From: Hyphomicrobium sp.
Lineage (GTDB): Bacteria > Pseudomonadota > Alphaproteobacteria > Rhizobiales > Hyphomicrobiaceae
Direction: 5' to 3'
DNA: 64,000 bases
Assembly (NCBI GenBank): GCA_003987725.1
Contig: RXJH01000010.1
Coordinates: 62,001 to 126,000, forward strand
The stretch's first letter is position 1, and each line of letters begins with the position of its first letter. Positions 11,105 through 38,269 of this stretch are shown in pieces. Both the position numbers and the translations under genes were made by a program. Under the pieces are notes generated by a model. The model did no database searches. It had not been told where the DNA came from and saw only the letters and a program-made list of their open reading frames with translations.

Positions 11105-11107
11105 GGT

Positions 11108-11974: not shown

Positions 11975-12158
11975 CTCTCCCCACGGGCTCGACGTTGCAT
12001 CTCAATGCCCGGAGCTATCCCCCGTCATGAAAGAAGTCAGAATTTTGAGAACCGGCCCCCACCCGCCCTTGCTGTACTATGGGGACAAGGCAATGACGAT
12101 TTTATGATCCTCATCGCGAGCACATCAGGCGGGTCAGTACATCGACGAAGGCAGGCGG

Positions 12159-13469
12159 CTACTGCGGGTTCTCAAGACTGAAGACCCGGGCGGCCTCGTC
12201 GTAGTCAAATAGCTCGCCGTAACGGCTCCAGGTGGTAACAGACCTCAGCGTGCTCTCAGCGGCTCTGTCACTCATATAGTCTTCGAGTTCCTGCGCGAAG
12301 CGATCGGCTGGCGCCTGATGGGTACTTCTCTCGTCAAGAACGCGGCGAATTCTGGCCGCCAATGGCACGTAGGCCAGAAGGTGGTCGCCGAAAAGCTTCT
12401 TGCGAACATCGACGTCTGCGTCCGCGAACTTCCTGCCGGCGGGTGTCAGATGAAGATCGCCTGCTTCCACCTCGGCAAAGCGTAGCAGTTGCAAAGTTTC
12501 CGCCGCCGGAAAAAGTTCATCGATCTCCATCTGGAGCTCACGTGCAATTTCCGGCATGTCCGCTTTCCCATTATAGGGAGGCGCTCCAACCGCCTCGATC
12601 AGACCGGCGAGCGTGTTGGTCGAAACCTGAGGCAGGATCATGCCGAAACCCATGCCAGGAAAATGACCCTCTCGGCCCGGCTGGGTAACGGGCCGTTGCG
12701 TCATGCGCGCGTAAATCGTGTCGACGAGTTGGCGGAATTCGGGATCAAGCCGATGGCGAGGGTGCTTGAGTGTAACCGTGATCTCTGATGCGACCCGGCC
12801 CGGATTTGATGAGAGGATGAGGATACGGTCGCACATCAACACGGCTTCTTCGATGTTGTGTGTCACCATCAGGATGGACTTGATCGGCATCCGGCCTTCG
12901 CACCAGAGGTCCAAGAGGTCGGTGCGAAGTGTCTCAGCAGTGAGAACGTCGAGGGCAGAGAACGGTTCGTCCATCAACAAGATGCTTGGATTGACCACGA
13001 GGGCGCGCGCGAAACCGACGCGCTGACGCATGCCACCCGAAAGTTCTTTCGGGTAGGCCGATTCAAATCCATCGAGTCCGATGAGATCGATGGCGGACAA
13101 AGCCCGCCGGTGCGCTTCCTCTTCCGGAACGGCCATAGCACGAAGACCGAATTCGACATTTTCGAGCACCGAGAGCCAGGGAAAGAGAGCGAAGCTCTGA
13201 AAGACCATGGCGATGCCGTTCACAGGTCCCGTTACTGGTTGGCCCTGGTAGATCACGTCGCCGGCACTTGGACGCGCAAGCCCGGAAACGATCCGCAACA
13301 GAGAAGACTTGCCACAGCCCGACCGGCCGAGCAGCCCGACGATCTCGCCTTCGTATAAGGATAAGTTCGCGTCATCGAGGATGACGATACCTTCGTCACC
13401 TGAGGTACCGCGATAACGCTGCTCGACGTGGCGGATTTCAAGAAGCGGTGTTGCAGATAACGTTGACAT
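12159..13469 (-). CDS. NitT/TauT-type ABC transporter ATP-binding protein with C-terminal AAA-associated domain
   Basis: ATPase of 436 residues that energises import. Residues of about 1-260 are a nitrate/sulfonate-type ABC domain with Walker [10 protein letters not shown], signature [10 protein letters not shown] and Walker [13 protein letters not shown]. The final 160 residues are the extra C-terminal domain (AAA_assoc_C type) found on a subset of NitT/TauT ATPases; it includes [21 protein letters not shown] and probably regulates the pump. The ATG at 13469 has a GAGGAA upstream. It lies 9 bp downstream of the double permease gene, so the two are one operon. No substrate-binding protein gene is in the neighbourhood, so substrate is unknown. 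Confidence 0.93.
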
Positions 13470-13478
13470 CGCAATTCC

Positions 13479-22254: not shown

Positions 22255-22411
22255 GGCGATCTTGTGTTCGCCGTTAGTGCGGTAATGGCCGCTTCTGCAG
22301 GGAAGGCAACATCCCGTTTCGCATATATCTTCTCCTCGGGGGGATATTGCAACATCTCGGCCACAATCCATCGATAACGCAGCTCCTGCAAACTCGAACT
22401 AAGGATAGCAA

Positions 22412-22780
22412 ATGCGAATTATGACTTTGGTAGTCTGTGCGGCTACGATTGCAGGAATTGCTGGCGGTGCCGAAGCTCAGACGATGCGTTTCGACGACCG
22501 CGGCTTCACTTTTCGATTTGGCCCGAATGATCGACGCGGAGACGTCGAAGGCAAACGTGCAAGCTGCGAGCTCTATGCCCGAATCGCGTCGGTCCAGTCG
22601 GATGCAAACATTCGATATCGGTGCGGCTTCCGCGGGCCTCAGTGGGCCACGGATATGGCGCCTCACTTCCGCTGGTGCCGCTGGGCGCCGCGTTCCGATC
22701 TAGCTCGCGACCAGCTGTTCCGCTCCCAGCAGCTGCAGGATTGCTTTAATCGGCTCGGCGACTTCGACGACCGCCGCTAA
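22412..22780 (+). CDS. Small secreted Cys-containing protein of unknown function
   Basis: Protein of 122 residues. Signal peptide MRIMTLVVCAATIAGIAGGAEAQ, probably cleaved after AEA. The mature part has four Cys (C56-type SCELYARIA, YRCGF, RWCRW, DCFNRL), compatible with two disulphides, and is rich in Arg, Asp and Trp. I do not recognise the family. It is followed at 22825 by a strong terminator, so it forms a single-gene unit. Confidence 0.75.
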   Translation: MRIMTLVVCAATIAGIAGGAEAQTMRFDDRGFTFRFGPNDRRGDVEGKRASCELYARIASVQSDANIRYRCGFRGPQWATDMAPHFRWCRWAPRSDLARDQLFRSQQLQDCFNRLGDFDDRR

Positions 22781-22824
22781 CAGCCGGCCCAAGAATTCGA
22801 TACGGGGCGACGTTTTACTCCTTG

Positions 22825-22859
22825 CTCGGCGCGATGTTGTTTCGCGCCGAGTTTTCGTT
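22825..22859 (+). terminator. Rho-independent terminator
   Basis: A perfect 10-bp stem, CTCGGCGCGA (22825-22834) and TCGCGCCGAG (22842-22851), with loop TGTTGTT, then TTTTCGTTT. It ends the 22412 gene; the next gene is convergent. Confidence 0.9.
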
Positions 22860-22933
22860 TGTGGAGAGTTCTCTTCGCACCCGACGCGAAGCGAACGTCA
22901 GTCATCCAATGCCGGCGTTGCTAGCCCCACAAC

Positions 22934-24373
22934 TCACTCAAATCGGAAGCCGGAAATGACCTTGGATTCGAGGTACTCCTCGATGCCCCATATCCCGCCC
23001 TCACGAGCGCGACCCGATTGCTTCACACCGCCAAAGAACGCTCCGGCACCGCGCGACTTTCTGTTCATCTCGATCATTCCCGACTTGAGAGCGAGACCCA
23101 GTCGATTGGCACGCGGCGCATCGTTTGTGTGAACGTAATTTGTGAGGCCATACGGCGTATCGTTTGCAATGCGGATTGCTTCATCCTCACCGTCGAACGG
23201 TATCATAGCCATCACCGGGCCGAAGATCTCTTCGCGCTCGATGGTCATGCCTTGCCGAACATCGGCAAATACAGTCGGCTTGACGAAATACCCCCGATTG
23301 AACTCTTCGGGACGGCCAAGCCCTCCGCAAAGCAGGCGAGCTCCTTCGTCGATCCCCTTTTTGATGTAGTTCTGGACTTGCTCCCACTGTCGCATGTTGA
23401 CAAGCGGTCCGATGTGAGAGCCAGCCTCCAAAGCTGGTCCGACTTTAATGGCTTCCGTGAGCGCAGTAACTTCCTTCACCGTTCGATCATAGATGGCGCG
23501 TTCGACGAGCATTCTCGAAGGAGCATTGCAGGACTGGCCCGAATTCTCCATCATGCGATTGATGCTCCATTTGATTGCTCGGGGATCGGCGTCGGCGAAG
23601 ATCAGATTCGCGCCTTTGCCGCCAAGTTCGAGCGCGACCCGCTTAAGAGTTTCAGCGGCGGCGCGCGATATGGCTTTTCCCGCGCGCGTGGAACCGGTGA
23701 ATGAAATCATCTCCACGTCGGGATGCTGGGACAGCTGGGCGCCAACACCGGCGCCGTCACCATTCACGAGATTGAACACGCCCGGCGGCACGCCCGCGTC
23801 GTGACAAAACTCCGCAAACATCATTGCATTCAAAGGCGCCTCTTCGGAGGGCTTGAGCACACACGTGCAGCCTGCAAGCATTGCCGGAATCGCCTTTAGC
23901 ACGATCTGGTTCACGGGCCAGTTCCATGGCGTTATAAGGCCGACGACACCTATAGGCTCCAAGACGACAGCGGTATTTGGCGCCTGCGCACCGAGCGGGC
24001 GTATCCATTCGATGCTTTCGAAGGCGTTCAAGAAATTCTTTGTATGCCAGGGCAAACAGGCCGCCTGCTCCGCCAAGGAAAAATCGATCGGCGCGCCCAT
24101 TTCCAAGGAGATGGCTTCGGCATACTCCTCGCGGCGCTTCCCGTATTGATCGATAATCTTTTTTATGATGGCGGCGCGCGTCGACGGCGCGGTTGCGGCC
24201 CATTTCGGAAGGGCCGCTTTGGCGGCACGTACCGCCGCGTCGGTGTCGGCCTGATCGCCAAGCGAGATGGTGGTGCATGGCTCTTCCGTCGAAGGATTGA
24301 GGACCTGCCAGTCCCTTGCGCCCTGAGGAGGAACCCAGGCTCCATTGATATAAAACTCGCGTCTGAACTTCAT
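22934..24373 (-). CDS. NAD(P)-dependent aldehyde dehydrogenase
   Basis: Aldehyde dehydrogenase superfamily enzyme of 479 residues that oxidises an aldehyde to its acid. It shows TPWNWPVNQIV (cofactor binding), FTGSTRAGKAI, the catalytic Glu in LELGGKGANLI and the catalytic Cys in NSGQSCNAPSRML. The start at 24373 (MKFRREFYING) has an AGAGA RBS; the open frame extends 17 codons further back but overlaps the upstream gene end. It is the last gene of a minus-strand operon with an iron alcohol dehydrogenase and an esterase. In that setting it probably oxidises the aldehyde made by the alcohol dehydrogenase. A puuC-like role on a gamma-glutamylated aldehyde is also possible. Confidence 0.93.
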   Translation of the reverse strand: MKFRREFYINGAWVPPQGARDWQVLNPSTEEPCTTISLGDQADTDAAVRAAKAALPKWAATAPSTRAAIIKKIIDQYGKRREEYAEAISLEMGAPIDFSLAEQAACLPWHTKNFLNAFESIEWIRPLGAQAPNTAVVLEPIGVVGLITPWNWPVNQIVLKAIPAMLAGCTCVLKPSEEAPLNAMMFAEFCHDAGVPPGVFNLVNGDGAGVGAQLSQHPDVEMISFTGSTRAGKAISRAAAETLKRVALELGGKGANLIFADADPRAIKWSINRMMENSGQSCNAPSRMLVERAIYDRTVKEVTALTEAIKVGPALEAGSHIGPLVNMRQWEQVQNYIKKGIDEGARLLCGGLGRPEEFNRGYFVKPTVFADVRQGMTIEREEIFGPVMAMIPFDGEDEAIRIANDTPYGLTNYVHTNDAPRANRLGLALKSGMIEMNRKSRGAGAFFGGVKQSGRAREGGIWGIEEYLESKVISGFRFE

Positions 24374-24416
24374 GATATCTCTGATCTTGTTCGGTTGCGA
24401 AACGAAGCACGGGCAC

Positions 24417-25610
24417 TCAGGCAATCTTTCGAATTATTCCTGAGTGCATCTCACCCAAAAGCTCTCGGACGTTTTCTTCAGTCAGCGGGACTGGATTTGT
24501 GCCTGCGGTCGGGTCAACAACCGCGAGCCGCGCGATATCTGCAAATTTCTCCTTCTCGACTCCAATATCAGCGATCGTTGCGGGGATACCTATCTCCGAT
24601 CTCAATTCGAGGATCCAGTCGTTGATAGCCCGAACAGCGGCCGCTCCGGATGACTTGCCATCTATCAACCCCAGATAAGCGGCCAGCCGTTGCATTTTTT
24701 CACCGATGTTCGGAGCGTTGAATGCAAGGACATAGGGCATGACGACTCCGTTCGTCAGTCCGTGATGGACTCCATAGATCGCGCCAATGGGGTGGCTTAC
24801 CGAGTGAACTGCGCCGAGGCCTTTCTGAAAAGCCGTTGCCGCCATTGCTGCAGCCGACAGCATCTGCCCACGGGCTTCGATATCGTCTCCTGCGCGAACG
24901 GCGCGGGGCAAATAATCTTTGACCAAGCGTGCGGCTTCCATCGCGATTGCATCGGCCATCGGATGGTAGCTCGGCGCGCAGAATGCCTCGATGGCGTGAG
25001 AGAGAGCGTCCATTCCCGTGCCGGCGGTCAAGGACGGCGGCAGGCCAACGGTCAGTTCGGGATCCAGGATCGCGATGCGCGGCATCATTGCAGGATGGAA
25101 AATGATCTTTTTTACATGATTATCCGCATCGGTGATCACGGTGGCACGCCCGACTTCCGAACCGGTTCCCGCCGTCGTCGGGATCGCGATGATGGGCGCA
25201 ATGGCCTCTGCCGAGGCACGACGCCAATTGTCGCCGATGTCTTCGAAGTCCCATACGGGTCTCGATTGACCGATCATGAGGGCAACCGTTTTGCCAACGT
25301 CGAGGGCGCTTCCGCCGCCGAATGCAATGACGCCATCATGTTTGCCATCCCGATAGGCGACCACACCGTCCATCAGGTTAACCGACGTGGGATTCCCCTG
25401 AAGCGCGTCGAAGACGGAGGCCTGAATGCCAGCGTCTCGCAGCAACGCCAGTGTCGATTGGACCATCGGCAAATTGGTGAGTCCCGGATCGGTGACAAAC
25501 AAGGGACGCGACATTCCGATCTCTTTGCAAGCTGTCGCCAACTCCGAGATTCGACCTGGGCCAAACCAAACCTTAGTGGGATAGCTCCAATTCGCGTTCG
25601 CGATCTTCAT
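24417..25610 (-). CDS. Iron-containing (group III) alcohol dehydrogenase
   Basis: Fe-ADH family enzyme of 397 residues. It contains the NAD-binding GGGSALDVGKTVALM, the proline-glycine segment PTTAGTGSEVGRATVIT and the metal ligands in DALSHAIEAFCAP (Asp/His) and AVHSVSHPIGAIYGVHHG (His, His). It interconverts alcohols and aldehydes with NAD(P). Start ATG at 25610 overlaps the stop of the esterase by four bases. It sits between esterase and aldehyde dehydrogenase genes, the order expected if an ester is hydrolysed and the released alcohol is oxidised in two steps. Confidence 0.93.
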   Translation of the reverse strand: MKIANANWSYPTKVWFGPGRISELATACKEIGMSRPLFVTDPGLTNLPMVQSTLALLRDAGIQASVFDALQGNPTSVNLMDGVVAYRDGKHDGVIAFGGGSALDVGKTVALMIGQSRPVWDFEDIGDNWRRASAEAIAPIIAIPTTAGTGSEVGRATVITDADNHVKKIIFHPAMMPRIAILDPELTVGLPPSLTAGTGMDALSHAIEAFCAPSYHPMADAIAMEAARLVKDYLPRAVRAGDDIEARGQMLSAAAMAATAFQKGLGAVHSVSHPIGAIYGVHHGLTNGVVMPYVLAFNAPNIGEKMQRLAAYLGLIDGKSSGAAAVRAINDWILELRSEIGIPATIADIGVEKEKFADIARLAVVDPTAGTNPVPLTEENVRELLGEMHSGIIRKIA

Positions 25611-26746
25611 CTCTCTATCCTTCCTTGTGCGGATGCTTTGATGTGTGCAGATAAGGTGTTTGCGATTTCGACGAGCGCTTCGCGTGCGCGCGGTACGCCT
25701 CCGGACATGGCGGTGAAGGCGTGCGGCAATGAAGGATAATTAAGCGTCGTCACTGAATTGCCTTCGCGCGCAAGACGTTCGCCAAGCGCTTGGCCCTCTG
25801 GAAGGAGCACGTCATTGCCCGCATGGACCATGATCGTGGGAGGTAAGCCGGAAAGGCTTTTTGCGCGCCCGACCGAGCATCTTGGATCATACGCATCGAC
25901 GGGCGCGCGCATATATTGCTCAGCAAACCAGATCATGTCTGCACGGGACAACGGGTAGTTCCGATCGTACGGAGTGATCGGCATCGCACGCCGATCCATA
26001 TCGACCACCGGGTAAATGAGCAGTTGCAGGCGGGGCATATCCTGCTGCTGATCGCGAAGGCATAGCGACGCCGCGAGCGCGAGATATCCGCCTGCAGAAT
26101 CACCTCCAATCGCGACGCAGGTCGGATCCGCGCCGATGCTGTGCGCGTTTGTGCGAACCCAGCGGAACGCTGCCAACGTGTCTTCTAAAGCTGCGGGAAA
26201 TTGGTGTTCGGGAGCCAGTCGATATGCGACAGACAGCACGAGGCACCCGCTCTGTTCCGATATTAGGCTGCACGCCGTATGGCAGGTATCGAGATCGCCA
26301 AGAACGCAACCGCCAAAGTGGAGGTAGATCAACAAGGGCACGTTTGCAGAAGTTGTGCCCTTCGGCCGGTAGAGACGCGCCGGTACCGTGGTCACCGGTC
26401 CTTCGATCTCAAGATTCGAGACGGAGACACGCGATGAGGCTCGCGCTTCGAGCAAAGATAGCGACAGGAAGGCCGGTTTCCTCCTGTCCTCCACTGTATC
26501 TCCACTTGCCGTGCTGAAACGTTTCACGATCCAAGCATGGATTCCGGCCCGCGGATCAATCCCCGGCATCTGACGCGCGAGTGATGTGAAGCGAAAAAAA
26601 CGAGAAATCAAAGGAAGAGAAATTTGGAACCCGGATCGCAGAAGCTTCCAGCTCTTCCGGTTCCAGCCATCAAGATTTGCAGCAGGAATGCCATCCGCTT
26701 CGCTTGATACGACCACCATCAATCTCCAACAGACTGACGTGGCCAA
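25607..26746 (-). CDS. Alpha/beta hydrolase, hormone-sensitive lipase (family IV) esterase
   Basis: Esterase/lactonase-type hydrolase of up to 379 residues. The nucleophile is in GDSAGGYLAL; the acid is in HAGNDVLLPEG and the His in SLPHAFT. YRLAPEHQFPAAL is a family IV signature. The oxyanion motif is HFGGCVLGD rather than the usual HGGG. The N-terminal 70 residues are not conserved in the family and the start is uncertain; later starts such as the Met in RQMPGIDPRAG are possible. It is the first gene of the minus-strand operon, divergent from the GntR regulator. Next to a BVMO it is the obvious candidate to hydrolyse the resulting ester or lactone. Confidence 0.88.
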   Translation of the reverse strand: MATSVCWRLMVVVSSEADGIPAANLDGWNRKSWKLLRSGFQISLPLISRFFRFTSLARQMPGIDPRAGIHAWIVKRFSTASGDTVEDRRKPAFLSLSLLEARASSRVSVSNLEIEGPVTTVPARLYRPKGTTSANVPLLIYLHFGGCVLGDLDTCHTACSLISEQSGCLVLSVAYRLAPEHQFPAALEDTLAAFRWVRTNAHSIGADPTCVAIGGDSAGGYLALAASLCLRDQQQDMPRLQLLIYPVVDMDRRAMPITPYDRNYPLSRADMIWFAEQYMRAPVDAYDPRCSVGRAKSLSGLPPTIMVHAGNDVLLPEGQALGERLAREGNSVTTLNYPSLPHAFTAMSGGVPRAREALVEIANTLSAHIKASAQGRIER

Positions 26747-26861
26747 GCGATGTTCCGGAGCATTTGAGGACTCATTGTCCTCGACGATGTGACGGTCATT
26801 TCATTGGCCCCGGCGTGATCGACGATGCCAGCAGGGCGTGCTGATCATCTTTCGATCTCAG

Positions 26862-26982
26862 GTATATTAGCAGTATATTCAGTTCGTCAATTCTCGAGTT
26901 TTTGGCGCAAAACGGCATATTTTTGTTGCATCGCAACGCCAAAAATTAAGCCAGTTTAGCGGACAAAAAATATTGACAATAT
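26862..26982. promoter_or_regulatory. Divergent control region: phased direct repeats, nested inverted repeats and promoter
   Basis: AT-rich intergenic DNA between the divergent esterase and GntR genes. GTATATT occurs twice 11 bp apart (26862 and 26873), about one helical turn. An outer inverted repeat, TTTTTGGCG (26899-26907) with CGCCAAAAA (26937-26945), encloses GTTGCATCGCAAC (26925-26937). A 13-bp palindrome, ATATTGACAATAT (26970-26982), overlaps a consensus -35 TTGACA (26973-26978). FadR-type GntR proteins bind palindromes of this size, so autoregulation is likely. Functions are inferred. Confidence 0.55.
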
Positions 26983-27033
26983 ATTTTCGAGCGGCCTTAC
27001 TGCGCGAGTTCGTTGGTGTCATCGGGGCTGCTT

Positions 27034-27795
27034 GTGCCGAAGAAGAGAGAGCCATTTCGACTGCCTCAGGCGGAAGGCGAGCGGGAAACGCAAGCGACGA
27101 AGGCGTATCACGCGGTTCGTGCGATGATCCTCCGCTGCGAGCTTCAGCCCGGCTCGGTGATCAACGACCGCCTTCTGACTAAGAAAATTGGCTACGGCCG
27201 TACACCGCTACGCGAAGCGTTGCTTCGCCTCGCGGGCGAAAGGCTCGTTCTCTTCCCGCGCAACCAAGTGATTGAGGTCGCGCCTGTCGAAGTTTCGGAA
27301 GTCAACAACCTCTACACGTTGAGGCTTCATTTGGAACGGCTCGCGTGGCGGCTTTGGCTGGAATCTGCCACCAACAAGCAGATCAGCGATCTGTCCCACA
27401 CCTTCGATACCGTGCCAGCGCTTACGCGGGAAGGCGATGTGGAAGGCCTTCTTCATCTCGATTTTGCATTTCATGTCCGGGTCTATCAGGAGTGCGGCAA
27501 TCCCTTTTTGACCCAGGCCCTCTATAACCTTTCCGGCGTCACGTACCGGCTTTGGTTCATGACCAATACCAACGACGTCAAGGCGCAAGCCGCAACAGCT
27601 CGTTCTCATGCGCCGATTATCGAAGCCGTTCGACGGCGCGATGCGCGCGCTTTGGATACAGAAATCGCGCGTCATATCTCCGAAGCCTACGACGCCATCA
27701 TGGACAAGTTCCGTGTCAACACGGTGAGTCGGATTGGCGAAATTCCAATTCAACTGCTGACGAAGGAGGAGAGTAATGGACTGCGTGACGCGTAG
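27034..27795 (+). CDS. GntR-family transcriptional regulator (FadR/FCD subfamily)
   Basis: DNA-binding repressor/activator of about 250 residues. An N-terminal GntR winged helix (LLTKKIGYGRTPLREALLRL) is followed by an all-helical FCD ligand-binding domain. The metal-binding pattern is present: the D/H in LLHLDFAFHVRVYQ, then the His in ARSHAPIIEA and IARHISEAYD. The start is uncertain: TTG 27013, GTG 27016 or GTG 27034. The last has a GGGG at good spacing and keeps the leader outside the coding region. Its 3' end overlaps the binding-protein gene by 20 bases. It probably controls both divergent operons in response to a carboxylate-like pathway intermediate. Confidence 0.9.
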   Translation: MPKKREPFRLPQAEGERETQATKAYHAVRAMILRCELQPGSVINDRLLTKKIGYGRTPLREALLRLAGERLVLFPRNQVIEVAPVEVSEVNNLYTLRLHLERLAWRLWLESATNKQISDLSHTFDTVPALTREGDVEGLLHLDFAFHVRVYQECGNPFLTQALYNLSGVTYRLWFMTNTNDVKAQAATARSHAPIIEAVRRRDARALDTEIARHISEAYDAIMDKFRVNTVSRIGEIPIQLLTKEESNGLRDA

Positions 27796-28843
27796 ATTAC
27801 ACCGTCTGGTTACGGCCGCGGTTGTTGGAAGCTTTGCATTCTCCAGCACCGTGATGGCCGGGGGACAGCTAACGGTTCTCTGTTGGGAAGGCTATGCGGA
27901 CAAGAGCTTTGTCGAGCCCTTCGAAGCGGAGTCCGGCTGTAAGGTGAACGCGGTCTATGTCGGTACGAACGATGAGATCGTGTCGAAGATCATGAGCGGC
28001 AGCGGAACCGCCGATCTCATCTCTCCTTCGAATGACACGACCATGAGGCTTGTGAGCGCCGATGCCGTGTCTCCGATCGACGAAAGTAAAGTTCCCAACA
28101 TGGCGAACTTTCTCCCGCAGTTTGAGCGCCCGGCGTGGGACGTGAAGGACGGCAAGCTTTGGGGAGTTCCTTACGGCTGGGGCGTTATTCGTGTCATCGC
28201 GGATCCTGCCGTCGTCGATCCCAAGACAGATACCCTCGGCTTCCTCTGGGACGCGAAGTACGCAGGCAAGCTTTCTGTTTGGGACGATATCGAGACCGTT
28301 TACACGGCTTCGCGGTATCTCGGATTCAAGAACACGTACGATTTGAGCGACGAGCAGCTCGAGCAAGTCAAGGCCAAGCTCATCGCAATGAAACCGAACA
28401 TTCGCAAATACTGGTTCACGACCGGTGAGATGGGCACCTTGATGGCCAGCGGCGAAGCGGTCGGCGGAAACTCGTGGGAGTCCACGATCGTTCAACTGCG
28501 GGCCGACGGCAAAAAGGTCGCTGACCTTATGCCGAAAGAGGGCCGAGGGGGCTGGAGCGATAGCTGGATGATCGTCAAGGGGGCTGAAAGCAATCCCTGC
28601 GTCTATCCGTTCCTCGATTATGTGTCTTCCGCGAAAGCGCAAGCATTAGCGCACAAGGTCACGGGCTTCGGCTATCCCAACGTCAAAATGGTCGACGAGC
28701 TCGATGAGAAAACGAGAGCGGCCTATACCGAACTCGGTATGACCGACCCCGCAACGCTTACCAACGTCGATTGGTGGCAGCCGGTGAAACGCCGGGCCAA
28801 GTATCTCGAAATTTGGAACCAGGTGAAGGCAGCGTCAAAGTAA
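27776..28843 (+). CDS. Polyamine-type ABC transporter substrate-binding protein (PotD/PotF-like)
   Basis: Periplasmic ligand-binding protein of 355 residues that delivers its ligand to the adjacent permeases. Signal peptide with cleavage near VMAGG. The opening QLTVLCWEGYADKSFVEPFE is the standard start of mature PotD/PotF-like proteins, and YGWGVIRVIAD and GGNSWESTIVQL line the cleft in relatives. The ATG at 27776 has an excellent AAGGAGGAG RBS within the end of the regulator gene, so the two are coupled. The ligand is probably a cationic amine or an amine-containing compound by family, but this family also binds other solutes. Confidence 0.92.
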   Translation: MDCVTRRLHRLVTAAVVGSFAFSSTVMAGGQLTVLCWEGYADKSFVEPFEAESGCKVNAVYVGTNDEIVSKIMSGSGTADLISPSNDTTMRLVSADAVSPIDESKVPNMANFLPQFERPAWDVKDGKLWGVPYGWGVIRVIADPAVVDPKTDTLGFLWDAKYAGKLSVWDDIETVYTASRYLGFKNTYDLSDEQLEQVKAKLIAMKPNIRKYWFTTGEMGTLMASGEAVGGNSWESTIVQLRADGKKVADLMPKEGRGGWSDSWMIVKGAESNPCVYPFLDYVSSAKAQALAHKVTGFGYPNVKMVDELDEKTRAAYTELGMTDPATLTNVDWWQPVKRRAKYLEIWNQVKAASK

Positions 28844-28923
28844 TTCACGCTGTCGGCTGAAGGTTCGCGCTGCGAGAGGCGTGCCCGTCTACTAGTTTGC
28901 CAACGATAGGACCATGGGGTGCG

Positions 28924-30012
28924 ATGACTACTGGAATTGAACTTCGCAATCTTCGCAAACTCTTTGAGGGCCACGGGCACGCCTCTTGGGCAGTTGATGG
29001 CGTCGACATGACGATCGGCGCCGGAAAATTCGTCACTCTTCTCGGACCCTCCGGGTGCGGGAAGACGACGACTTTGCGAATGATTGCCGGTCTCGAGATG
29101 CCGACGTCAGGTCAGATTTTCCGAGACGGCCAGGACATCACGGATCAACCTGTCACCGACCGCGATATGCGGATGGTGTTTCAGGATTTTGCGTTGTTTC
29201 CGAACATGACGATTGAGGACAACGTTGCGTTCGGCCTACGTGTAAAGAGCAAGAAGGGAAAGTATACGGAACCGCAGATTCAGCAGCGGGTCGCTGAATT
29301 CCTTGATCTCGTGCATCTCAAAGACCATGCGCACAAGAAGCCTCATCAGCTCTCCGGAGGCCAGAAGCAGCGGGTTTCGCTGGCACGCGCGCTCGTCACC
29401 GATCCGAAAGTTGTGCTGTTTGACGAGCCGCTCGGATCGCTCGATGCCAACCTGCGCAAGATCATGCAGCTCGAGCTCATTCGCCTACATCGGGAACTCG
29501 GCAAAACATTCATCTATGTCACGCACGACCAGGACGAAGCGATGGCGATGAGCGATGCGATCGCGGTGATGTCGCAAGGCAAGGTCATGCAATTTGGTAC
29601 TCCTCGGGAGATCTATGATCGCCCGGCCAATCGCTATGTCGCATCCTTCATCGGGCACGCGCACATTGTGGACGCGACCGTTGACAGTAAACAGGCGGAC
29701 TCGCTGTCGGTCCGTCTTCGAAATGGCGATCGCGTCGGTCTGCGTGGCAAAGCCGACGCGGCACCGGGAAGCGCCGTGGGCCTCATGCTGCGTGCGGAAG
29801 ATCTCGCATTTGCGGATGCCGCCACCGATACAATCGGCGGAAGGGTGGTCGATAGCCTCTATCGTGGCGAATATGTTGAGTATGTCGTCGCCTTGAACGG
29901 AAACTCGGGCGTCGTTCACGTCCACGCTCGCACCGATCTGCCGCCGGTCGCGCACGGCTCGGCCGTAGCGCTAAAGGTGAACCCGGCCAAAGCGCACGTG
30001 GTGGTGCATTGA
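28924..30012 (+). CDS. Polyamine-type ABC transporter ATP-binding protein (PotA-like)
   Basis: Import ATPase of 362 residues. Walker A is GPSGCGKTT, signature LSGGQKQRVSLARAL, Walker B VVLFDEPLGSLDAN, switch His in YVTHDQDEAM. The C-terminal 100 residues are a TOBE_2 domain (GLMLRAEDLAFADA). The start is chosen at 28924 (MTTGIELRNL); an in-frame start at 28897 adds nine residues. It ends one base before the first permease. Membership of this four-gene importer is certain from gene order. Confidence 0.95.
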   Translation: MTTGIELRNLRKLFEGHGHASWAVDGVDMTIGAGKFVTLLGPSGCGKTTTLRMIAGLEMPTSGQIFRDGQDITDQPVTDRDMRMVFQDFALFPNMTIEDNVAFGLRVKSKKGKYTEPQIQQRVAEFLDLVHLKDHAHKKPHQLSGGQKQRVSLARALVTDPKVVLFDEPLGSLDANLRKIMQLELIRLHRELGKTFIYVTHDQDEAMAMSDAIAVMSQGKVMQFGTPREIYDRPANRYVASFIGHAHIVDATVDSKQADSLSVRLRNGDRVGLRGKADAAPGSAVGLMLRAEDLAFADAATDTIGGRVVDSLYRGEYVEYVVALNGNSGVVHVHARTDLPPVAHGSAVALKVNPAKAHVVVH

Positions 30013-30013
30013 G

Positions 30014-30934
30014 ATGACGGCGATGACGACGATTGAACGGCCAGTCGAGCTCAAGGGAACCAGCATCCGCAGCGCCCGGGCGATTGAACGACGGAGGCTC
30101 CTTCTTTGGCTGGTGCCGCCGTTGGCCTGGTTCACGGTCTTCATGCTGATCCCATACGCCACGCTGCTCTACACGAGCCTTGGTCATGTGGACGACATGC
30201 GGTTCATTCCCGGATTGTCACTCGACAATTTCGTCCGCGTTTTCACAGTGGATCCGTACCTCAGCGTCATCCTAAAATCGGCTCGGATTGGTTTGATGAC
30301 GGCCGTCTTTTCGTCGATCGTCGCCTATCCACTGGCCTTCTATCTGGCTTTCCACGTTCGAACGCAGCGGCTGAAGTTCCTCATCTATCTACTCGTGATC
30401 GTTCCGTGGTGGGCCAGTTATCTCGTCAAGGCGTACGCTTGGAAAACGATCCTTGGATCGGGCGGCATACTCAATGTCGGGATGCAAAATCTCGGCCTAG
30501 TGCATGAACCCGTGCGTTTGTTTCTGTACAACGAATTCAGCGTGGACATGACGCTGACGTACATCTTCACGCCATTTGCAGTTCTATCGATCTATGCGCA
30601 GCTTGAGAGGGTGCCGACATCTTTGATCGAGGCCGCGCGCAATCTCGGCGCAGATGGCTGGATGATCTTCAGGCGCATCATCTTGCCGATCAGCGTTCCT
30701 GGTGTGGTGGCGGGAGCGATCATCACCTTCTCGCTCGCGTTCGGAGATTTCGTCGCTCCGGTTCTCGTCGGAGGACCGGATTCGGTGATGATCTCAAACG
30801 TCGTCATCAATCTCCTTGGCGTGGCATTCGACTGGCCGATGGCTGCCGCAATCGGCCTGGTGATTATCACGCTCGGTCTTCTGCTCATCTCGGCGTCGGG
30901 ATGGTTGGAAGAAAAAACGCAAACCCGGTTTTGA
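30014..30934 (+). CDS. Polyamine-type ABC transporter permease (PotB-like)
   Basis: Inner-membrane permease of 306 residues with about six TM helices (for example PPLAWFTVFMLIPYATLLYTS). The EAA coupling loop reads LIEAARNLGADGWMIFRRIILP. It starts one base after the ATPase stop. It forms a heterodimeric channel with the following permease. Confidence 0.94.
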   Translation: MTAMTTIERPVELKGTSIRSARAIERRRLLLWLVPPLAWFTVFMLIPYATLLYTSLGHVDDMRFIPGLSLDNFVRVFTVDPYLSVILKSARIGLMTAVFSSIVAYPLAFYLAFHVRTQRLKFLIYLLVIVPWWASYLVKAYAWKTILGSGGILNVGMQNLGLVHEPVRLFLYNEFSVDMTLTYIFTPFAVLSIYAQLERVPTSLIEAARNLGADGWMIFRRIILPISVPGVVAGAIITFSLAFGDFVAPVLVGGPDSVMISNVVINLLGVAFDWPMAAAIGLVIITLGLLLISASGWLEEKTQTRF

Positions 30935-30942
30935 GAGATCTC

Positions 30943-31737
30943 ATGCGCGCTTTCGGCAACCGAACTCTTGTGACCGGAATGGCCATGTCCGTGCTCGCGT
31001 TCCTTTACGCGCCGATCTTGGTGATGATGGTCTTTTCGTTCAACGACAGCCAATATACCGGGTTGCCGTTCAATGGATTCACGCTCCGTTGGTACGAAGC
31101 ACTTTTCAGCGACGAACAAATGCTGATGTCCATCTGGAACAGCGTTTTTGTCGGACTTGGGGTCGTTGTTATCAGCGTTCTCTTCGGCGTCCCGGCGGCA
31201 ATCGCGCTCGATCGATACGAGTTCCCGGGAAAGGGCCTTTTTCGACGCATCGTGATGTTGCCCCTCGTCCTCCCCGGCATCATCACGGGTATCGCCCTTC
31301 TTGGGTTTTATCTCACCATCCACCTACGGCTCTCGTTGTACACGATCATGCTCGGCCAGGGCACGGCCCTAATGTGTGTCACGATCACCGAGGTATTCGC
31401 CAGACTTCAGCAGCTTGGCAAGAGCCAAGCGGAAGCCGCTGCAAATCTCGGTGCCAACGATTGGGAGATCTTCAAGAACGTAACTTTCCCGGGCATCCGC
31501 TCGGCGCTGTTTGGTGCGATGTTGATTGCGTTTTCGATCTCGTTCGACGAGATCGCCGTCACCTTCCTGCTCACGGGTCGAGAAAACACTCTGCCTATGA
31601 CGTTGTGGTCGCTCCTGCGTCGCGAGGTGACGCCGGAAGTAAATGCCGTCGCCACTCTCATTGTCTTCCTCTCGATCATCTTAATCGTCGCCGGAATGTA
31701 TGCATCGCGTGGGCACGCGAACGAAAGTGAGGCCTGA
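30943..31737 (+). CDS. Polyamine-type ABC transporter permease (PotC-like)
   Basis: Second permease of the importer, 264 residues, six predicted TM helices. EAA loop: SQAEAAANLGANDWEIFKNVTFPG. The start at 30943 (MRAFGNRT) is set by a GAGAG RBS at 30933-30937, right after the stop of the first permease; the longer frame from 30901 would overlap that gene. The stop at 31737 is one base before the ligase gene. Confidence 0.93.
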   Translation: MRAFGNRTLVTGMAMSVLAFLYAPILVMMVFSFNDSQYTGLPFNGFTLRWYEALFSDEQMLMSIWNSVFVGLGVVVISVLFGVPAAIALDRYEFPGKGLFRRIVMLPLVLPGIITGIALLGFYLTIHLRLSLYTIMLGQGTALMCVTITEVFARLQQLGKSQAEAAANLGANDWEIFKNVTFPGIRSALFGAMLIAFSISFDEIAVTFLLTGRENTLPMTLWSLLRREVTPEVNAVATLIVFLSIILIVAGMYASRGHANESEA

Positions 31738-31738
31738 A

Positions 31739-33070
31739 ATGACAGTCGAAGAAGTCCGTGAGATCATAACGCGAGAAAAGATCAAAACCGTCATCATCGC
31801 GGCGACCGATTCAGCGGGCGTTCTGCGCGGCAAACGGTTGACGGTTCCCTATTTCTATCATGCCATCGAGGATGGCCTGCACTTCGCGTCGTTTCTTTTG
31901 GGAACGACCACAATGGACGAAGTTTTGCCGGGGCTGTTTGACACTGGTATTCCGGACGTAAAGGGCGTGATTGATCTATCGACCTTCCGCGTCGCGCCAT
32001 GGGAATCGAATACTGCTATTGTCTTCATGGACTGGGCAACACCTGAAGGTTCTCCCCACCCGCTCTGTCCGCGCTCAATGCTGAAGCGCAAGGTGGCCGA
32101 AGCCAAATCCATGGGTTTCGATTCTAGCGCCAGCCTCGAGCTCGAATTCTACTTACTGCCGGTGTCAACGGCCGAAGTGCGTAAAGGCCGGTGGTCAGAT
32201 ATCGAGCCCGGTTCCCGGGATATTCACTGCTATTCAATTCTCGAGGGTCACTACTGGGAACCCATCATCGGAAAGCTCCGAGACTGCTTTCCGAACGAGA
32301 TCGAAGGGTGCTTGCCCGAGTGGGGCCAAGGCCAGTTCGAGGTGAACCTTCATCACTCCGATCCTGTAAAGATGGCCGACACTTCCATACTGCTTAAGCT
32401 CGCAACGAAGCAGCTCGCGTCCCAAGCAGGTGCGATGGCGACGTTCATGGCGAAGTTTCGCGAAGATTTGTCGGGATGTTCGGGTCACATCCACATCAGC
32501 CTGCAGAAGACGATTACAAAAGAGCCGGCATTCTACGACGCCGACAAGCCGCTGCGCCTCAGCGATACGTTCAAGAACTTTGTGGCGGGCAACATCGACG
32601 TGTTTTCGCCATCGATGATCTTTTACGCCCCCAACGTAAATTCCTATAAGCGTCTGCAATCGATGACGTTTGCCGGAACGACAAGAAATTGGGCCATCGA
32701 CAATCGCACGACCGGCTTTCGCGCGATAAACGCAACGCCGCGTAGCACGAGGCTCGAAGTGCGCATGGCCGGCGCGGATGTGAACCCCTACTATGGTCTG
32801 TCGATCGCGCTCGGCTCGGGATTGCGGGGCATTCGCCTCGGCCTCGTCCCTCCGCAGCCCGCAAGCGGCAACGCGTATGACGACAACGTGGACAAGGTTC
32901 CGACTACTCTCTCGGCGGCCGTCTCATGCGCTGCAAAGGATAAAGCGATCCGAGAGGTACTTTCACCTGAGGTCGTCGACAACGCTCTCCGCATCGCTGA
33001 TTTCGAGCTCGGCGTATTCGAGCGGACCGTGACCGACCTCGAGCGCCGCCGGTACATGGAAACCGTCTGA
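31739..33070 (+). CDS. Glutamine-synthetase-like gamma-glutamyl-amine ligase (PuuA/GlnA3-type)
   Basis: ATP-dependent ligase of 443 residues in the GS-III/PuuA-like group that joins glutamate to an amine through its gamma-carboxyl. Signatures: SLELEFYLLP, the nucleotide/metal-site WGQGQFEVNLHH, the ATP-binding GCSGHIHISLQ, the glutamate-site PNVNSYKRLQ and DNRTTGFRAI. The start ATG at 31739 follows the permease stop by one base, with a GAGG-like RBS. Relatives act on putrescine, ethanolamine, isopropylamine or anilines. Genes for the classical Puu oxidase (PuuB) and hydrolase (PuuD) are not in the window. The neighbouring transporter suggests the imported amine is its substrate. Confidence 0.9.
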   Translation: MTVEEVREIITREKIKTVIIAATDSAGVLRGKRLTVPYFYHAIEDGLHFASFLLGTTTMDEVLPGLFDTGIPDVKGVIDLSTFRVAPWESNTAIVFMDWATPEGSPHPLCPRSMLKRKVAEAKSMGFDSSASLELEFYLLPVSTAEVRKGRWSDIEPGSRDIHCYSILEGHYWEPIIGKLRDCFPNEIEGCLPEWGQGQFEVNLHHSDPVKMADTSILLKLATKQLASQAGAMATFMAKFREDLSGCSGHIHISLQKTITKEPAFYDADKPLRLSDTFKNFVAGNIDVFSPSMIFYAPNVNSYKRLQSMTFAGTTRNWAIDNRTTGFRAINATPRSTRLEVRMAGADVNPYYGLSIALGSGLRGIRLGLVPPQPASGNAYDDNVDKVPTTLSAAVSCAAKDKAIREVLSPEVVDNALRIADFELGVFERTVTDLERRRYMETV

Positions 33071-33099
33071 GCGCGCCAGTCCACAAGAAAGCGATCGAC

Positions 33100-34602
33100 A
33101 TGCAAATGGAAGCGGTGACCCAAAAGGGGCAGACGGATGACGTTCGATACTTCGACGTCATCATCGTTGGTGCCGGCATTTCCGGCGTCGGCAGCGCTCA
33201 CTTTCTCAAGAAAAATTGCCCCGATTTGTCGTACGTCCTTCTCGAAACGCAGGAGGCGTACGGCGGAACATGGCATACGCACCGCTATCCTGGTGTCAGG
33301 TCGGACAGTGATCTCTATACTTTCGGATTCAGCTTCAAGCCATGGGTGGAATCTCCGATTGCCACCGGCGAGCGAATTCTCACGTACCTAAATGCCGTCA
33401 TTCAAGAGGATGACCTCGAGCGGCACATTCGATATCGCCATCGCGTTGTCTCGGCGAATTGGGACAGCAAGCGCAAACGTTGGGACCTCGTTGTCCGAAA
33501 CGAGCAGCTCGGCCAGGATCTGCGATTTTCGACCAATTTCCTTTGGATGTGTCAGGGCTACTATCAGCACGACCAGGGCTATACGCCGGAATGGCCGGGG
33601 ATGGAGAGTTTTGAGGGCCAAATCGTTCACCCGCAGACGTGGCCCTCCGACCTCGATTACGCCGACAAAAATATTCTGCTGATCGGATCTGGAGCAACCG
33701 CTGCAACGCTTGTGCCGGCCCTTGCAGAGAAGGCGGCTCACGTGACCATGCTGCAGCGGTCGCCCACCTATTTCAATCCAGGAACAAACGCAGATGCGCT
33801 AGCGGATCAGCTACGCGCGCTGGAAATCGACGAGAATTGGATTCACGCGATTATTCGAAAAAAGCTGCTGAAGGAGCAGGAGGGGAGACTTCTGCGCGCC
33901 CAGAACGAACCCGATGCCGTCGCAAAGGAAATGATATCTGCCGTCGCAGCCAACCTGGGGCCATCGGTCGATGTGGCGGAACATTTCACACCCGCTTATC
34001 GACCGTGGCAGCAGCGCGTTGCCTTCATACCGGAGGGCGACTTCTTCGAACCATTCCGCGACGGAAAAGCGTCGATTGTCACCGATACCATCGAGACTTT
34101 CACGCCGCAGGGTGTGCGTTTGAAATCGGGCCGAACGCTCGAAGCCGACATCATTGTCACCGCAACAGGCTTCAGACTCAGTGTCTTGGGCGGCATAGCA
34201 TTCTCGAAAGACGGTGCACCGCTAAATCTGGCTGACACCGTCACGTATCACGGCATGATGTTCACGGGCGTACCCAACCTCGTATGGGTTTTCGGATATT
34301 TCCGCTCGAGCTGGACGCTCAGAGTGGAATTGATTGCGGACTTCGTGACCCGTCTTCTGAAGCATATGCGGACTATCGGCAAAGAGATGGTGACGGTCGA
34401 ACTCCGAAAGGAAGATCAAGGCGAGCCGCTGCTGCCATGGATCGATGAAGAAAACTTCAATCCTGGCTACCTCACGCGCGACATGCACCTGATGCCGAAG
34501 CGCCTCAACAAACCTGAGTGGCAACACACGCAGGATTATTTCGCCGAGTGTATCCGGTTGCCTCAGATCAGCTTCTCAGACGCCGCGTTCCATTTTTCTT
34601 GA
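33100..34602 (+). CDS. Flavin-containing monooxygenase, Baeyer-Villiger type
   Basis: FAD- and NADPH-dependent class B monooxygenase of 500 residues. FAD motif GAGISG at residues 24-29. The type I Baeyer-Villiger fingerprint FxGxxxHxxxWP occurs exactly at 171-182 (FEGQIVHPQTWP); ordinary FMOs have no WP there. NADPH motif GSGATA at 196-201, and ATGF near the C-terminal third. The group converts ketones to esters or lactones, though some members oxidise N or S. It begins 29 bp after the ligase gene and is the last gene of the plus-strand operon. The esterase, alcohol dehydrogenase and aldehyde dehydrogenase of the divergent operon would complete a ketone degradation route. Confidence 0.92.
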   Translation: MQMEAVTQKGQTDDVRYFDVIIVGAGISGVGSAHFLKKNCPDLSYVLLETQEAYGGTWHTHRYPGVRSDSDLYTFGFSFKPWVESPIATGERILTYLNAVIQEDDLERHIRYRHRVVSANWDSKRKRWDLVVRNEQLGQDLRFSTNFLWMCQGYYQHDQGYTPEWPGMESFEGQIVHPQTWPSDLDYADKNILLIGSGATAATLVPALAEKAAHVTMLQRSPTYFNPGTNADALADQLRALEIDENWIHAIIRKKLLKEQEGRLLRAQNEPDAVAKEMISAVAANLGPSVDVAEHFTPAYRPWQQRVAFIPEGDFFEPFRDGKASIVTDTIETFTPQGVRLKSGRTLEADIIVTATGFRLSVLGGIAFSKDGAPLNLADTVTYHGMMFTGVPNLVWVFGYFRSSWTLRVELIADFVTRLLKHMRTIGKEMVTVELRKEDQGEPLLPWIDEENFNPGYLTRDMHLMPKRLNKPEWQHTQDYFAECIRLPQISFSDAAFHFS

Positions 34603-36351
<1,749 letters not shown>

Positions 36352-36357
36352 GGATAA

Positions 36358-36388
36358 CGCGGGGTGGCAAGAGATTCGCCACCCCGCG
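36358..36388 (+). terminator. Stem-loop after gdhA
   Basis: A perfect 11-bp stem, CGCGGGGTGGC (36358-36368) and GCCACCCCGCG (36378-36388), with a 9-base loop. There is no T-tract after it, so it may act as a 3'-end stabiliser rather than an intrinsic terminator. A diverged version follows the second repeat copy at 38373-38402. Confidence 0.55.
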
Positions 36389-36451
36389 CAGCTGATCGCG
36401 TGAGATCAAATTGCGCGATTGCGTTTGATCGACAGATCTCGCGCACAACAG

Positions 36452-36610
36452 TCACCGCGCCCAGGCGCCGCAATAATCATTGACGGAGCCGTCTTGCACC
36501 CATAGCTTCGACGACGCGGTGCAAGCCGCATCCGGACCCGCGGAAAGGGCAGAGCCCACTTGCAGCGATAAGCTGTCATTCTTCCAACCTTTGTGCAGCC
36601 GTATTGCGGG
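36452..36610 (-). pseudogene. Possible 5'-truncated remnant of a small secreted-protein gene
   Basis: Minus-strand open frame of 52 codons plus stop whose translation looks protein-like: HKGWKNDSLSLQVGSALSAG, followed by CTASSKLWVQDGSVNDYCGA. There are two Cys, balanced composition and GC-rich third positions. No usable start codon precedes it: an in-frame stop at 36611-36613 cuts it off, just ahead of the ankyrin gene. The simplest reading is that the 5' part was lost when the ankyrin gene arrived or was rearranged. Family not recognised; a chance frame cannot be excluded. Confidence 0.35.
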
Positions 36611-36640
36611 TCACCGGCGCTTCACGCACGGAGGTTATTC

Positions 36641-38269
36641 ATGAAGCCGCTGCCAAGCCGGCCCGATCTCGATCAATTGAAGAAGCAAGCGAAGGAACTG
36701 CTGGCCGATTATCGGCGCGGCGCTCCCGAAGCCATCGATCGTTTCCGCGCATCCTTGCCCGCAGCCGCCGGTCTCGACCACGCGGCGATCATTCAACTAC
36801 GCTTACGATTACATGATGCTCAGTCGTGCTTGGCGCGCGAGCACGGATTTGACACCTGGGCCGATCTCAAGGGCTTCGTGGAAGCGATCCGGCTCAAGGC
36901 AGCAGATCCGCTCACTCTGGCGCGAGCGTTCTTCAATCTCGTCTATGCAGGCGACATTACGGGCAGCATGAACGGCGCACGCCCAACGGCTGCAGCTCGA
37001 TTGCTGTCGGATCATCCGCACCTCGCCGCGCAAAATCCCTGGATTGCCTGCGCTTCCGGAGATGTCGCCGTCGTCCGCAGCCAGATCCAAGCGTCTCCAT
37101 CGTGGATCAACCAATCCGGCGGACCGCTGAATCTTCCGCCTCTCGTCGCGGCGACCCATTCGAGCCTGCTGCGCATTGCGGACTTCAAGGTGCGGCTTTA
37201 CGAGACGGTCGATCTGCTGCTCGAAGCCGGTGCTGATCCTAATCAGTCGGTTGGCAGCCGTTGGTCACCAGCGTCCCTCAACGCTCCGTCCGAGGAGTAT
37301 AGGCTGTCGGCGCTCTACGGCGCGGCGGGACAAAACCACGATCCGGAATTGACCCGTCGTTTGCTCACTGCGGGGGCCGATCCCAACGACAATGAATCTC
37401 TCTATCACTCATTGGAAGCGCCCGCATGCACACGGCTTCTGCTCGAGGCGGGCGCGGTCGTCACAGGCACAAACGCCCTCTATCGCTGTCTTGATCTCGA
37501 TGATCTCGATACCTTCCGGCTGCTGCTAGCGCATGCGTCAGGCGCAAAGGAACTGAGCGACGCGCAACTGCTATTTTGGGCTATCAGGCGGCGACGATCG
37601 CCTGCGCACATAGAGGCCTTGCTGGCGGCCGGTGTCGACCCAATGGCGAAAACGCGGGACGGTGTCAGCGCTTACACGCAAGCTCTTCGCTATGGCCTGC
37701 CCGATGTTGCCGACGTCTTGCGGAGCGTCGGTGCGGGTGAGGATCCCAAGGAAGAGGACCGGTTCGTTGCGGCGTGCGCGCGAGGCGACTTAGTGGCTGC
37801 GCGCCAGATCAAGGCGCTTCGGCCGGACTTGCCCCAGGGCTTGAGCGAAATTCAATTAAGGCTCTTGCCAGAGCTGGCTGCCGCCGGTTGCGCCGAGGCG
37901 GTTCGCGCGATGGTCGAACTCGGCTGGCCGATTGGCATTCGCGGCGGTGACTGGAACGCCAGCGCCTTGAACCATGCCGTGTTTCGCGGCGACGGTGCAC
38001 TCGCACGCTTCCTGCTTGAGCGGGGTGCGTCGTGGACCGAAGAGCATGGCTTCGGGGATAATGTGTGCGGTACGCTGAGTTGGGCTTCTCTCAATCAGCC
38101 GGTTGATAACGGCGACTGGGTTGCTTGCGCTGAAGTTCTCGTCGCCAGCGGAATGCCGCCGGCATTGCGGGATCCAGCTGATCCTCAGAACGTCCTCGTC
38201 GCTGGGAAGCGCAGGCAGTTCTCCGACGAGGTCACCGAGTTTCTGCTCGGCCGGAGCGGAGATATTTGA
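36641..38269 (+). CDS. Ankyrin-repeat protein
   Basis: Protein of 542 residues. The N-terminal 80 residues (PDLDQLKKQAKELLADYRRG, ARE-HGFDTWADLKG) form a conserved helical region found at the head of many bacterial ankyrin proteins. Ankyrin-type repeats follow: LLEAGADPNQSVGS, LLTAGADPNDNESLYHS, LLLEAGAVVTGTNALY, LLAAGVDPMAKTRDG, LLERGASWTEEHG. No signal peptide or TM helix is seen, so it is probably cytoplasmic and binds proteins. The start at 36641 has a GGAGG RBS. It is framed by a 33-bp direct repeat of the gdhA 3' end, which suggests insertion or duplication. Confidence 0.88.
   Translation: MKPLPSRPDLDQLKKQAKELLADYRRGAPEAIDRFRASLPAAAGLDHAAIIQLRLRLHDAQSCLAREHGFDTWADLKGFVEAIRLKAADPLTLARAFFNLVYAGDITGSMNGARPTAAARLLSDHPHLAAQNPWIACASGDVAVVRSQIQASPSWINQSGGPLNLPPLVAATHSSLLRIADFKVRLYETVDLLLEAGADPNQSVGSRWSPASLNAPSEEYRLSALYGAAGQNHDPELTRRLLTAGADPNDNESLYHSLEAPACTRLLLEAGAVVTGTNALYRCLDLDDLDTFRLLLAHASGAKELSDAQLLFWAIRRRRSPAHIEALLAAGVDPMAKTRDGVSAYTQALRYGLPDVADVLRSVGAGEDPKEEDRFVAACARGDLVAARQIKALRPDLPQGLSEIQLRLLPELAAAGCAEAVRAMVELGWPIGIRGGDWNASALNHAVFRGDGALARFLLERGASWTEEHGFGDNVCGTLSWASLNQPVDNGDWVACAEVLVASGMPPALRDPADPQNVLVAGKRRQFSDEVTEFLLGRSGDI

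Follow-up and report, generated by a model that had tools for sequence, protein, structure and literature searches.

We analyzed a 64,000-nucleotide stretch of contig C2 from a 4.25-Mb Hyphomicrobium-like genome (hereafter, the window). Positions 22934 to 34602 of the window hold ten open reading frames (ORFs) that form two divergent operons around a single regulator gene. An earlier note had described this arrangement and had recognized a PotDABC-like importer within it. All ten ORFs were found in place, and Pfam confirmed both the FCD/GntR family of the regulator and the importer families. The minus-strand operon encodes an aldehyde dehydrogenase (ALDH; 22934-24424; Aldedh, 502 bits), an iron-containing alcohol dehydrogenase (Fe-ADH; 24417-25610; N- and C-terminal Fe-ADH domains), and an HSL-family alpha/beta-hydrolase that is probably an esterase (25607-26746, start uncertain; Abhydrolase_3, 206.8 bits). 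The plus strand encodes the regulator (27034-27795; FCD, 80.5 bits; GntR, 38.4 bits), a PotD/PotF-type solute-binding protein (27776-28843; SBP_bac_8), a PotA-like ATP-binding cassette (ABC) ATPase (28897-30012; ABC_tran and TOBE_2), PotB-like and PotC-like permeases (30014-30934 and 30901-31737), a glutamine synthetase (GS)-like protein that is probably a gamma-glutamyl amine ligase of the GoaS type (31739-33070; Gln-synt_C, 250.5 bits), and a class-B flavin monooxygenase resembling type I Baeyer-Villiger monooxygenases (BVMOs; 33100-34602). Among the NCBIfam matches listed for the ten ORFs, none reached its curated cut-off, so we assigned no specific function from that source; PotA models scored best for the ATPase, and the matches of both permeases were likewise under cut-off. 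The regulator ORF opens at 27013, and its start is probably the GTG at 27034, judged by eye. The ligase ORF opens at 31700, but its start is probably 31739 because distant orthologs align from residue 13-14.

We scanned a genome collection with the ligase using exact peptide patterns, which find close relatives and may miss more distant ones. The scan returned 26 loci, with the best matches in Hyphomicrobium (96% identity in a metagenome-assembled genome (MAG) and 91% in H. facile). Seven of these loci (L032-L038) carry the same nine genes in the same divergent order at 48-97% identity: Fe-ADH and esterase on one side, and regulator, PotD, PotA, PotB, PotC, ligase, and BVMO on the other. The same nine genes are present in a further genome of the genus (G322, locus L100), in which, in keeping with the later ligase start, a TGA lies within the aligned stretch of the ligase and the ORF from ATG spans 443 amino acids. 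Counting the window, the order and orientation of this cassette are kept in nine genomes, whose hosts are Hyphomicrobium (with L033 from H. facile DSM 1565), a 'Proteobacteria' MAG, a Mesorhizobium MAG, Xanthobacter aminoxidans, and two Rhodobacteraceae/Paracoccaceae. This shared arrangement indicates linkage beyond chance. The earlier note had chosen co-occurrence of the two operons beforehand as the test that could refute it, and both operons do occur together in all nine genomes, with palindromes between them. The conservation of a ten-gene set, for which it proposed a search, holds for nine genes and is less well supported for the ALDH, an ortholog of which accompanies only three of the nine cassettes.

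The cassette is sparsely distributed. Of 22 genomes of the genus, 5 (the window's own among them) gave a ligase match at E<=1e-100, as did 1 of 297 genomes drawn from the order, again the window's own. (Counts are not additive, since some genomes are probably listed twice, with a G and with an L name.) Across the nine cassettes, the correlation between the ligase distances and those of eight core genes is r 0.88-0.98, and the lowest pair among the nine genes reaches 0.83; shared species history could contribute to these values.

The surroundings of the cassette mostly differ between genomes and reveal no common extra step; ORF calling in the GC-rich relative loci was rough. An acyl-CoA-dehydrogenase-like gene and a flavin reductase are common to the flanks of L037 and L038 and are unmatched in the other loci compared. 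A resolvase gene lies near the Xanthobacter copy. In the window, the cassette is followed downstream by a Glu/Leu/Phe/Val-type dehydrogenase gene and preceded upstream by a gene for a Kup-type K+ transporter. Genome G316 (L104) contains DNA matching window positions 22303-22912, then a piece of the Fe-ADH gene (24404-24922), then 34764-36390. Because an Fe-ADH fragment is still enclosed by the flanks known from the window, this junction is most simply read as a probable deletion scar from a cassette that was once present and has since been lost. In G318 (L109), about 0.5 kb, free of the cassette, separates the dehydrogenase gene from DNA resembling the Kup-side spacer (69% over 314 bp), and a ligase match lies about 57 kb from the spacer-like DNA on the same contig. 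The spacer had no match in the eight other genus loci compared. Our best reading is that the cassette is a self-contained catabolic unit passed between genera. Separately, the flank of a Rhodobacteraceae copy (L101, 3225-15050) carries a further Pot-type ABC set next to the gene for a DAO and GCV_T domain protein. It also encodes a MesX-family protein and, with a flavin reductase, an acyl-CoA-dehydrogenase-like protein.

We examined the ligase by alignment with Escherichia coli GlnA. Residues E129, E131, E212, E220, H269, R321, R339, R344, E357, and R359 are kept, the alignment has a gap at D50, and F stands in place of E327 (W in IpuC, Y in PuuA). With the roles that we presume for these GlnA-numbered residues, including E327 as the flap position, the ATP, metal, and glutamate residues are retained and the ammonium-site D50 and flap residue are lost. 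This pattern resembles that of GoaS enzymes, for which the available part of PMC11335346 describes loss of Asp50' and prints the flap residue as Glu357. Of five references, the ligase scored highest with the IpuC-like protein of Aminobacter SR38 (299 bits), followed by IpuC (281 bits; 35% identity), a Pedobacter ligase (258 bits), E. coli PuuA (149 bits; 28% identity), and GlnA (78 bits). The 'PuuA-like' label of the earlier note thus names the right family but is loose, given the higher score with IpuC. Based on the changed ammonium-site residues and the reference scores, the protein is most likely a glutamate-amine ligase and not an ammonia enzyme.

The window monooxygenase contains the exact fingerprint FEGQIVHPQTWP from residue 171, as previously noted, between the Rossmann motifs GAGISG at residue 24 and GSGATA at residue 196. 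We take FxGxxxHxxxW(P/D) between two Rossmann motifs to define type I BVMOs, and the cassette enzymes have this layout: the F form occurs in the window and L032-L035, and in L036-L038 the first F is Y with the remainder kept. The best solved matches of the window enzyme are cyclohexanone and phenylacetone monooxygenases. By motif, we assign it to the type I Baeyer-Villiger class. In a tree of 38 BVMOs, a branch (100/99) separates the 9 cassette enzymes from those of 29 other loci in the order. These 29 loci encode BVMOs 43-61% identical to that of the window, and no other cassette gene was found within their flanks of about 1.5 kb. Three of ten ORFs neighboring them belong to a family (MlaD, TPP enzyme, sulfotransferase) and seven do not; some may be in wrong frames.

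The remaining enzymes and the importer were compared in the same way. We used what we take to be the amine-binding pocket positions of E. coli PotD to examine the solute-binding protein. W34, Y37, D168, W229, and D257 are kept in 10 of 10 aligned rows, and W255 is kept except in L037 and L038, where it is Y; E171 is changed to T, Y85 to D, and Q327 to W. Partly kept and partly changed, the pocket would fit a cationic amine that need not be spermidine. The esterase has HFGG and GDSAG motifs in 8 of 8 copies examined. The earlier note had grouped esterase, Fe-ADH, and ALDH as one operon; the first two are kept with the BVMO in all nine cassettes and belong to the core, whereas the ALDH is not conserved core and is probably accessory. 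For the Fe-ADH, 4-hydroxybutyrate dehydrogenase was the top NCBIfam model, at a score under cut-off. An Fe-ADH gene also lies near the GS-like ligase gene in 12 of 16 Bacteroidetes ligase loci. We searched eight of these 12 genomes, chosen for having Fe-ADH beside a GS-like gene and with loci paired by coordinate ranges. In each of the eight, the Fe-ADH by the ligase was the genome's best match to the window Fe-ADH (270-288 bits); a second match was found in three and reached at most 105 bits. The Pedobacter locus L043 has a row of permease, ligase, Fe-ADH, C26 hydrolase, and ALDH genes. This pairing supports an Fe-ADH that acts on a glutamylated amino alcohol.

The intergenic region between the operons contains paired palindromes. 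A regulator-side copy (26969-26983) includes an exact ATATTGACAATAT at 26970-26982, and an esterase-side copy (26863-26877) is degenerate, with three mismatches to TATATTGWCAATATA. Paired operator-like palindromes near ATATTG(A/T)CAATAT lie between the operons in 8 of 9 cassettes, with two sites within three mismatches of TATATTGWCAATATA whose starts are 98-107 bp apart; L100 had one copy in the stretch searched. The esterase-side site matches TATATTGWCAATATA exactly in L034-L038, with one mismatch in L033, and with three in L032 as in the window. Across eight genomes searched (the window's own and G297-G303), the exact 13-mer palindrome occurs at 14 places, 13 of them in a cassette, and ATATTGACAATAT at 26970-26982 is its sole copy in the window's genome. 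The single place outside cassettes (L061; G299:C10:648079) is near a RelA/SpoT-type gene. The 13-mer read backwards gave zero matches, although genomes of this kind would in any case hold few chance copies of an AT-rich 13-mer. In all nine intergenic regions, the regulator-side palindrome contains TTGACA, followed after 17 bases by (A/C)T(T/A)ACT; in the window, this promoter-like TTGACA-N17-CTTACT occupies 26973-27001 on the plus strand. Because TTGACA belongs to the palindrome, the second hexamer alone is independent evidence for a promoter. The FCD protein, probably a repressor, would bind these candidate operators, one of which overlies the -35-like box of the importer operon, and an inducer would relieve control of both operons.

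The cassette is one functional unit, and we read it as a variant of glutamylation-initiated amine catabolism. We consider it about an even chance that it serves the breakdown of an amine that also carries a ketone. In this model, the PotDABC-type importer would take up a cationic substrate, and the GS-like ligase would join the substrate amine to the gamma-carboxyl of glutamate. The BVMO would then place an oxygen next to the ketone to form an ester, and cleavage by the esterase would release a short acid and leave a gamma-glutamyl amino alcohol. The Fe-ADH, with a local or general ALDH, would oxidize this alcohol to a gamma-glutamyl amino acid, and a hydrolase encoded elsewhere would release glutamate. 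A fitting substrate would be a methyl ketone with a primary amine, such as 4-aminobutan-2-one or diacetonamine, which would yield acetate and an amino alcohol. The amino ketone suggested in the earlier note fits the enzymes and gives the best reading, and we infer the compound itself from the enzyme set.

We next consider the wider ligase clade. The next relatives of the ligase (L039, L040, and L041; 51-55% identity) are not cassette copies, and all three have a class-B flavin monooxygenase gene a few kb away at most. In L041, a gene with the BVMO-like motif FKGPVYHTGTWP lies between the ligase and a Pot operon. In L040, one with the BVMO-like motif FAGASFHSARWD lies beside an FCD regulator. 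The enzyme in L039, a 5-kb contig, has the motif FDGEVLHSHHYR, which is of the flavin-containing monooxygenase (FMO) type and not the BVMO type. These three monooxygenases are 20-26% identical to the window enzyme, and those of L040 and L041 are 33% identical to each other. No operator at up to three mismatches was found in the three loci. Thus, all ten ligase loci at 51% identity or above have a class-B flavin monooxygenase nearby, drawn from at least three sequence lineages, and nine of the ten have the BVMO fingerprint, three of these with Y in place of F. In the 16 Bacteroidetes ligase loci (32-34% identity; some short), four class-B monooxygenase queries gave no match at 1e-10. Because two of the lineages have the BVMO fingerprint (the cassette type, and L040 with L041) and one is FMO-like (L039), we tentatively suggest, at somewhat less than an even chance, that glutamate capping coupled to Baeyer-Villiger cleavage is a distinct kind of amine catabolism that was assembled more than once. 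Two other features of these loci were recorded. A guanylate/adenylate cyclase-domain protein is encoded between the ligase and the BVMO-like gene in L041 (10947-12224), and a second GS-like ligase adjoins a PhyH-type dioxygenase gene in L039 (2-1998) and L040 (18438-20800), perhaps as another ligase-oxygenase pair.

Several observations weigh against the amino-ketone model. Given the FMO-type partner in L039, ketone chemistry may not extend across the ligase clade as a whole. PMC11335346, in its available part, prints Glu357 as the lost residue, whereas E357 is kept in the window ligase, PuuA, and IpuC, and it is E327 that is lost. Among solved structures, the Fe-ADH matches two methanol dehydrogenases best, and the enzyme would also suit methanol derived from methyl acetate. 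An orthologous ALDH is adjacent only in the window, L032, and L033 (85-86% identity in the latter two). An ALDH remnant of 45 residues (L100, 4584-4718) lies beside the otherwise complete cassette of G322. In L036, an unrelated ALDH (30% identity) directly follows the BVMO, and in L035 another (37%) lies downstream at a distance of about 3 kb. Within the window alone, palindrome matches at up to three mismatches occur at 2 places against 0.20 expected, and 2 of 100 shuffles also gave 2. Finally, the nine-gene core lacks a hydrolase to free glutamate, and Xanthobacter G301 has no full-length match to the C26 hydrolase family (best, 4.2e-11). C26 matches at E<1e-45 were found in the other seven of the eight cassette genomes, but 14 of 14 controls matched the family as well, and its presence is therefore of little diagnostic value. 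Gamma-glutamyltransferase was found in 8 of 8 cassette genomes and 8 of 14 controls. On another contig of the window's own genome, a C26 hydrolase gene is grouped with genes for a further GS, two ALDHs, and a class III aminotransferase, and on this basis a hydrolase may act in trans. The earlier note was right that PuuB and PuuD types are missing from the ten genes. Its proposal that the BVMO and esterase replace them is less well supported, given that PuuD-type hydrolysis is a different reaction and that a C26 hydrolase is encoded elsewhere in the genome.

Four alternatives were weighed against this model. In the first, which we regard as unlikely, a simple branched or cyclic amine (isopropylamine, cyclohexylamine) is imported, glutamylation helps ketone formation, and the ketone enters the classical route; acetone would give acetate and methanol, the latter useful to methylotrophs. 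Some cassette-host genera are known for methylotrophy, the top ligase scores were with the IpuC-like protein and IpuC, and the methanol dehydrogenases matched by the Fe-ADH point the same way. According to the available part of PMC7206491, Mameliella alba has cyclohexanone-to-adipate genes without an identified amine-oxidizing gene. However, this scheme needs a ketone-forming enzyme, and none is evident: none of the ten genes encodes a P450, an amine oxidase, or a transaminase, and two IpuC-type plasmid stretches carry P450 genes instead. The best NCBIfam row of the Fe-ADH, though under cut-off, also names a 4-hydroxybutyrate and not a methanol enzyme.

A cyclic amino ketone, for example of the 4-piperidone type, ranks behind this as likewise unlikely. 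Its secondary amine would be glutamylated, the BVMO would expand the ring to a lactone, the esterase would act as a lactonase, and the alcohol would be oxidized. The same enzyme set would serve, following the BVMO-lactonase-ADH-ALDH logic of cyclohexanone degradation. Against it, nothing here separates this scheme from the open-chain version, and ligase action on secondary amines is a supposition on our part. We find it improbable that the monooxygenase instead adds oxygen in vivo to a nitrogen or sulfur atom of the substrate, whether glutamylated or free, with the esterase and Fe-ADH acting on other parts of the molecule. Many BVMOs also oxidize sulfur, and the FMO-type motif FDGEVLHSHHYR in L039 would suit such chemistry, but nine of ten ligase loci have the BVMO fingerprint (Y for F in three) and the cassette core includes an esterase, which a Baeyer-Villiger product requires. 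That polyamine scavenging and ketone breakdown are two unrelated modules merely lying side by side is very improbable: each half does resemble a known system, but the halves co-occur across genera amid mostly different flanks, share palindromes between them, and have gene distances that track the ligase (to which species history could add), and we rejected chance adjacency on the basis of this co-conservation and the palindromes.

We compared the cassette to known catabolic systems. The Ipu pathway, encoded on a plasmid of Paenarthrobacter aurescens TC1, likewise uses a GS-like ligase to cap an amine, and its oxygenase acts on the glutamyl amide after capping, according to the available part of PMC6776027. 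The Ipu stretch differs in that its oxygenase is a P450, accompanied by ferredoxin and reductase and adjacent to glutamine amidotransferases. Its annotated genes in the PLSDB tables, which are incomplete, include no BVMO, esterase, or Fe-ADH, and no P450 is present among the ten genes of the window. Ethanolamine glutamylation by Streptomyces GlnA4, also predicted in Chromohalobacter salexigens, involves a ligase, a dehydrogenase, and an ALDH that act on a gamma-glutamyl amino alcohol, with the later steps predicted (PMC6529630, available part). Capping and the predicted dehydrogenase steps are shared with the cassette, but the ethanolamine substrate is already an alcohol, and the gene list in that part of the source includes no BVMO or esterase. 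The 1-naphthylamine and aniline pathways (NpaA1, AtdA1) also begin with a GoaS-type ligase but use a dioxygenase system and no BVMO, as far as the available part of PMC11335346 describes them. The Puu putrescine pathway of E. coli shares the ligase family and the glutamate capping of an amine. We rejected a Puu-type polyamine pathway for the cassette, which lacks PuuB-type oxidase and PuuD-type hydrolase genes and has weak identity to PuuA. BVMO-esterase routes for ketones (acetone monooxygenase, cyclohexanone) follow the order BVMO, esterase, ADH, ALDH, for which the window has all four enzymes. To our knowledge, the ketones of these routes are amine-free and require neither an amine importer nor a glutamate ligase. 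Among the matches listed from the open-access literature, we found no description joining a BVMO with a gamma-glutamyl ligase pathway and, by title, no pathway for diacetonamine or triacetonamine.

Two further features of the window lie outside the cassette. An ankyrin-repeat protein of 558 residues (36593-38269) is encoded downstream of the Glu/Leu/Phe/Val-type dehydrogenase gene. A minus-strand gene run at 8122-15215 encodes a PBP-OmpA fusion, two ORFs without a Pfam match, an ABC ATPase with an AAA-associated domain, and a double permease.

If the amino-ketone model is correct, the cassette would represent a new oxidative strategy in glutamylation-type amine pathways, since the systems compared here use P450s, a dioxygenase, an amine oxidase, or alcohol dehydrogenases. 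The FCD regulator and its candidate operator offer a likely genetic sensor, and the cassette BVMO may accept charged, capped substrates. The presence of the cassette in multiple genera suggests that an amino ketone or related N-compound, so far not linked to it, does occur in the environment of these bacteria.

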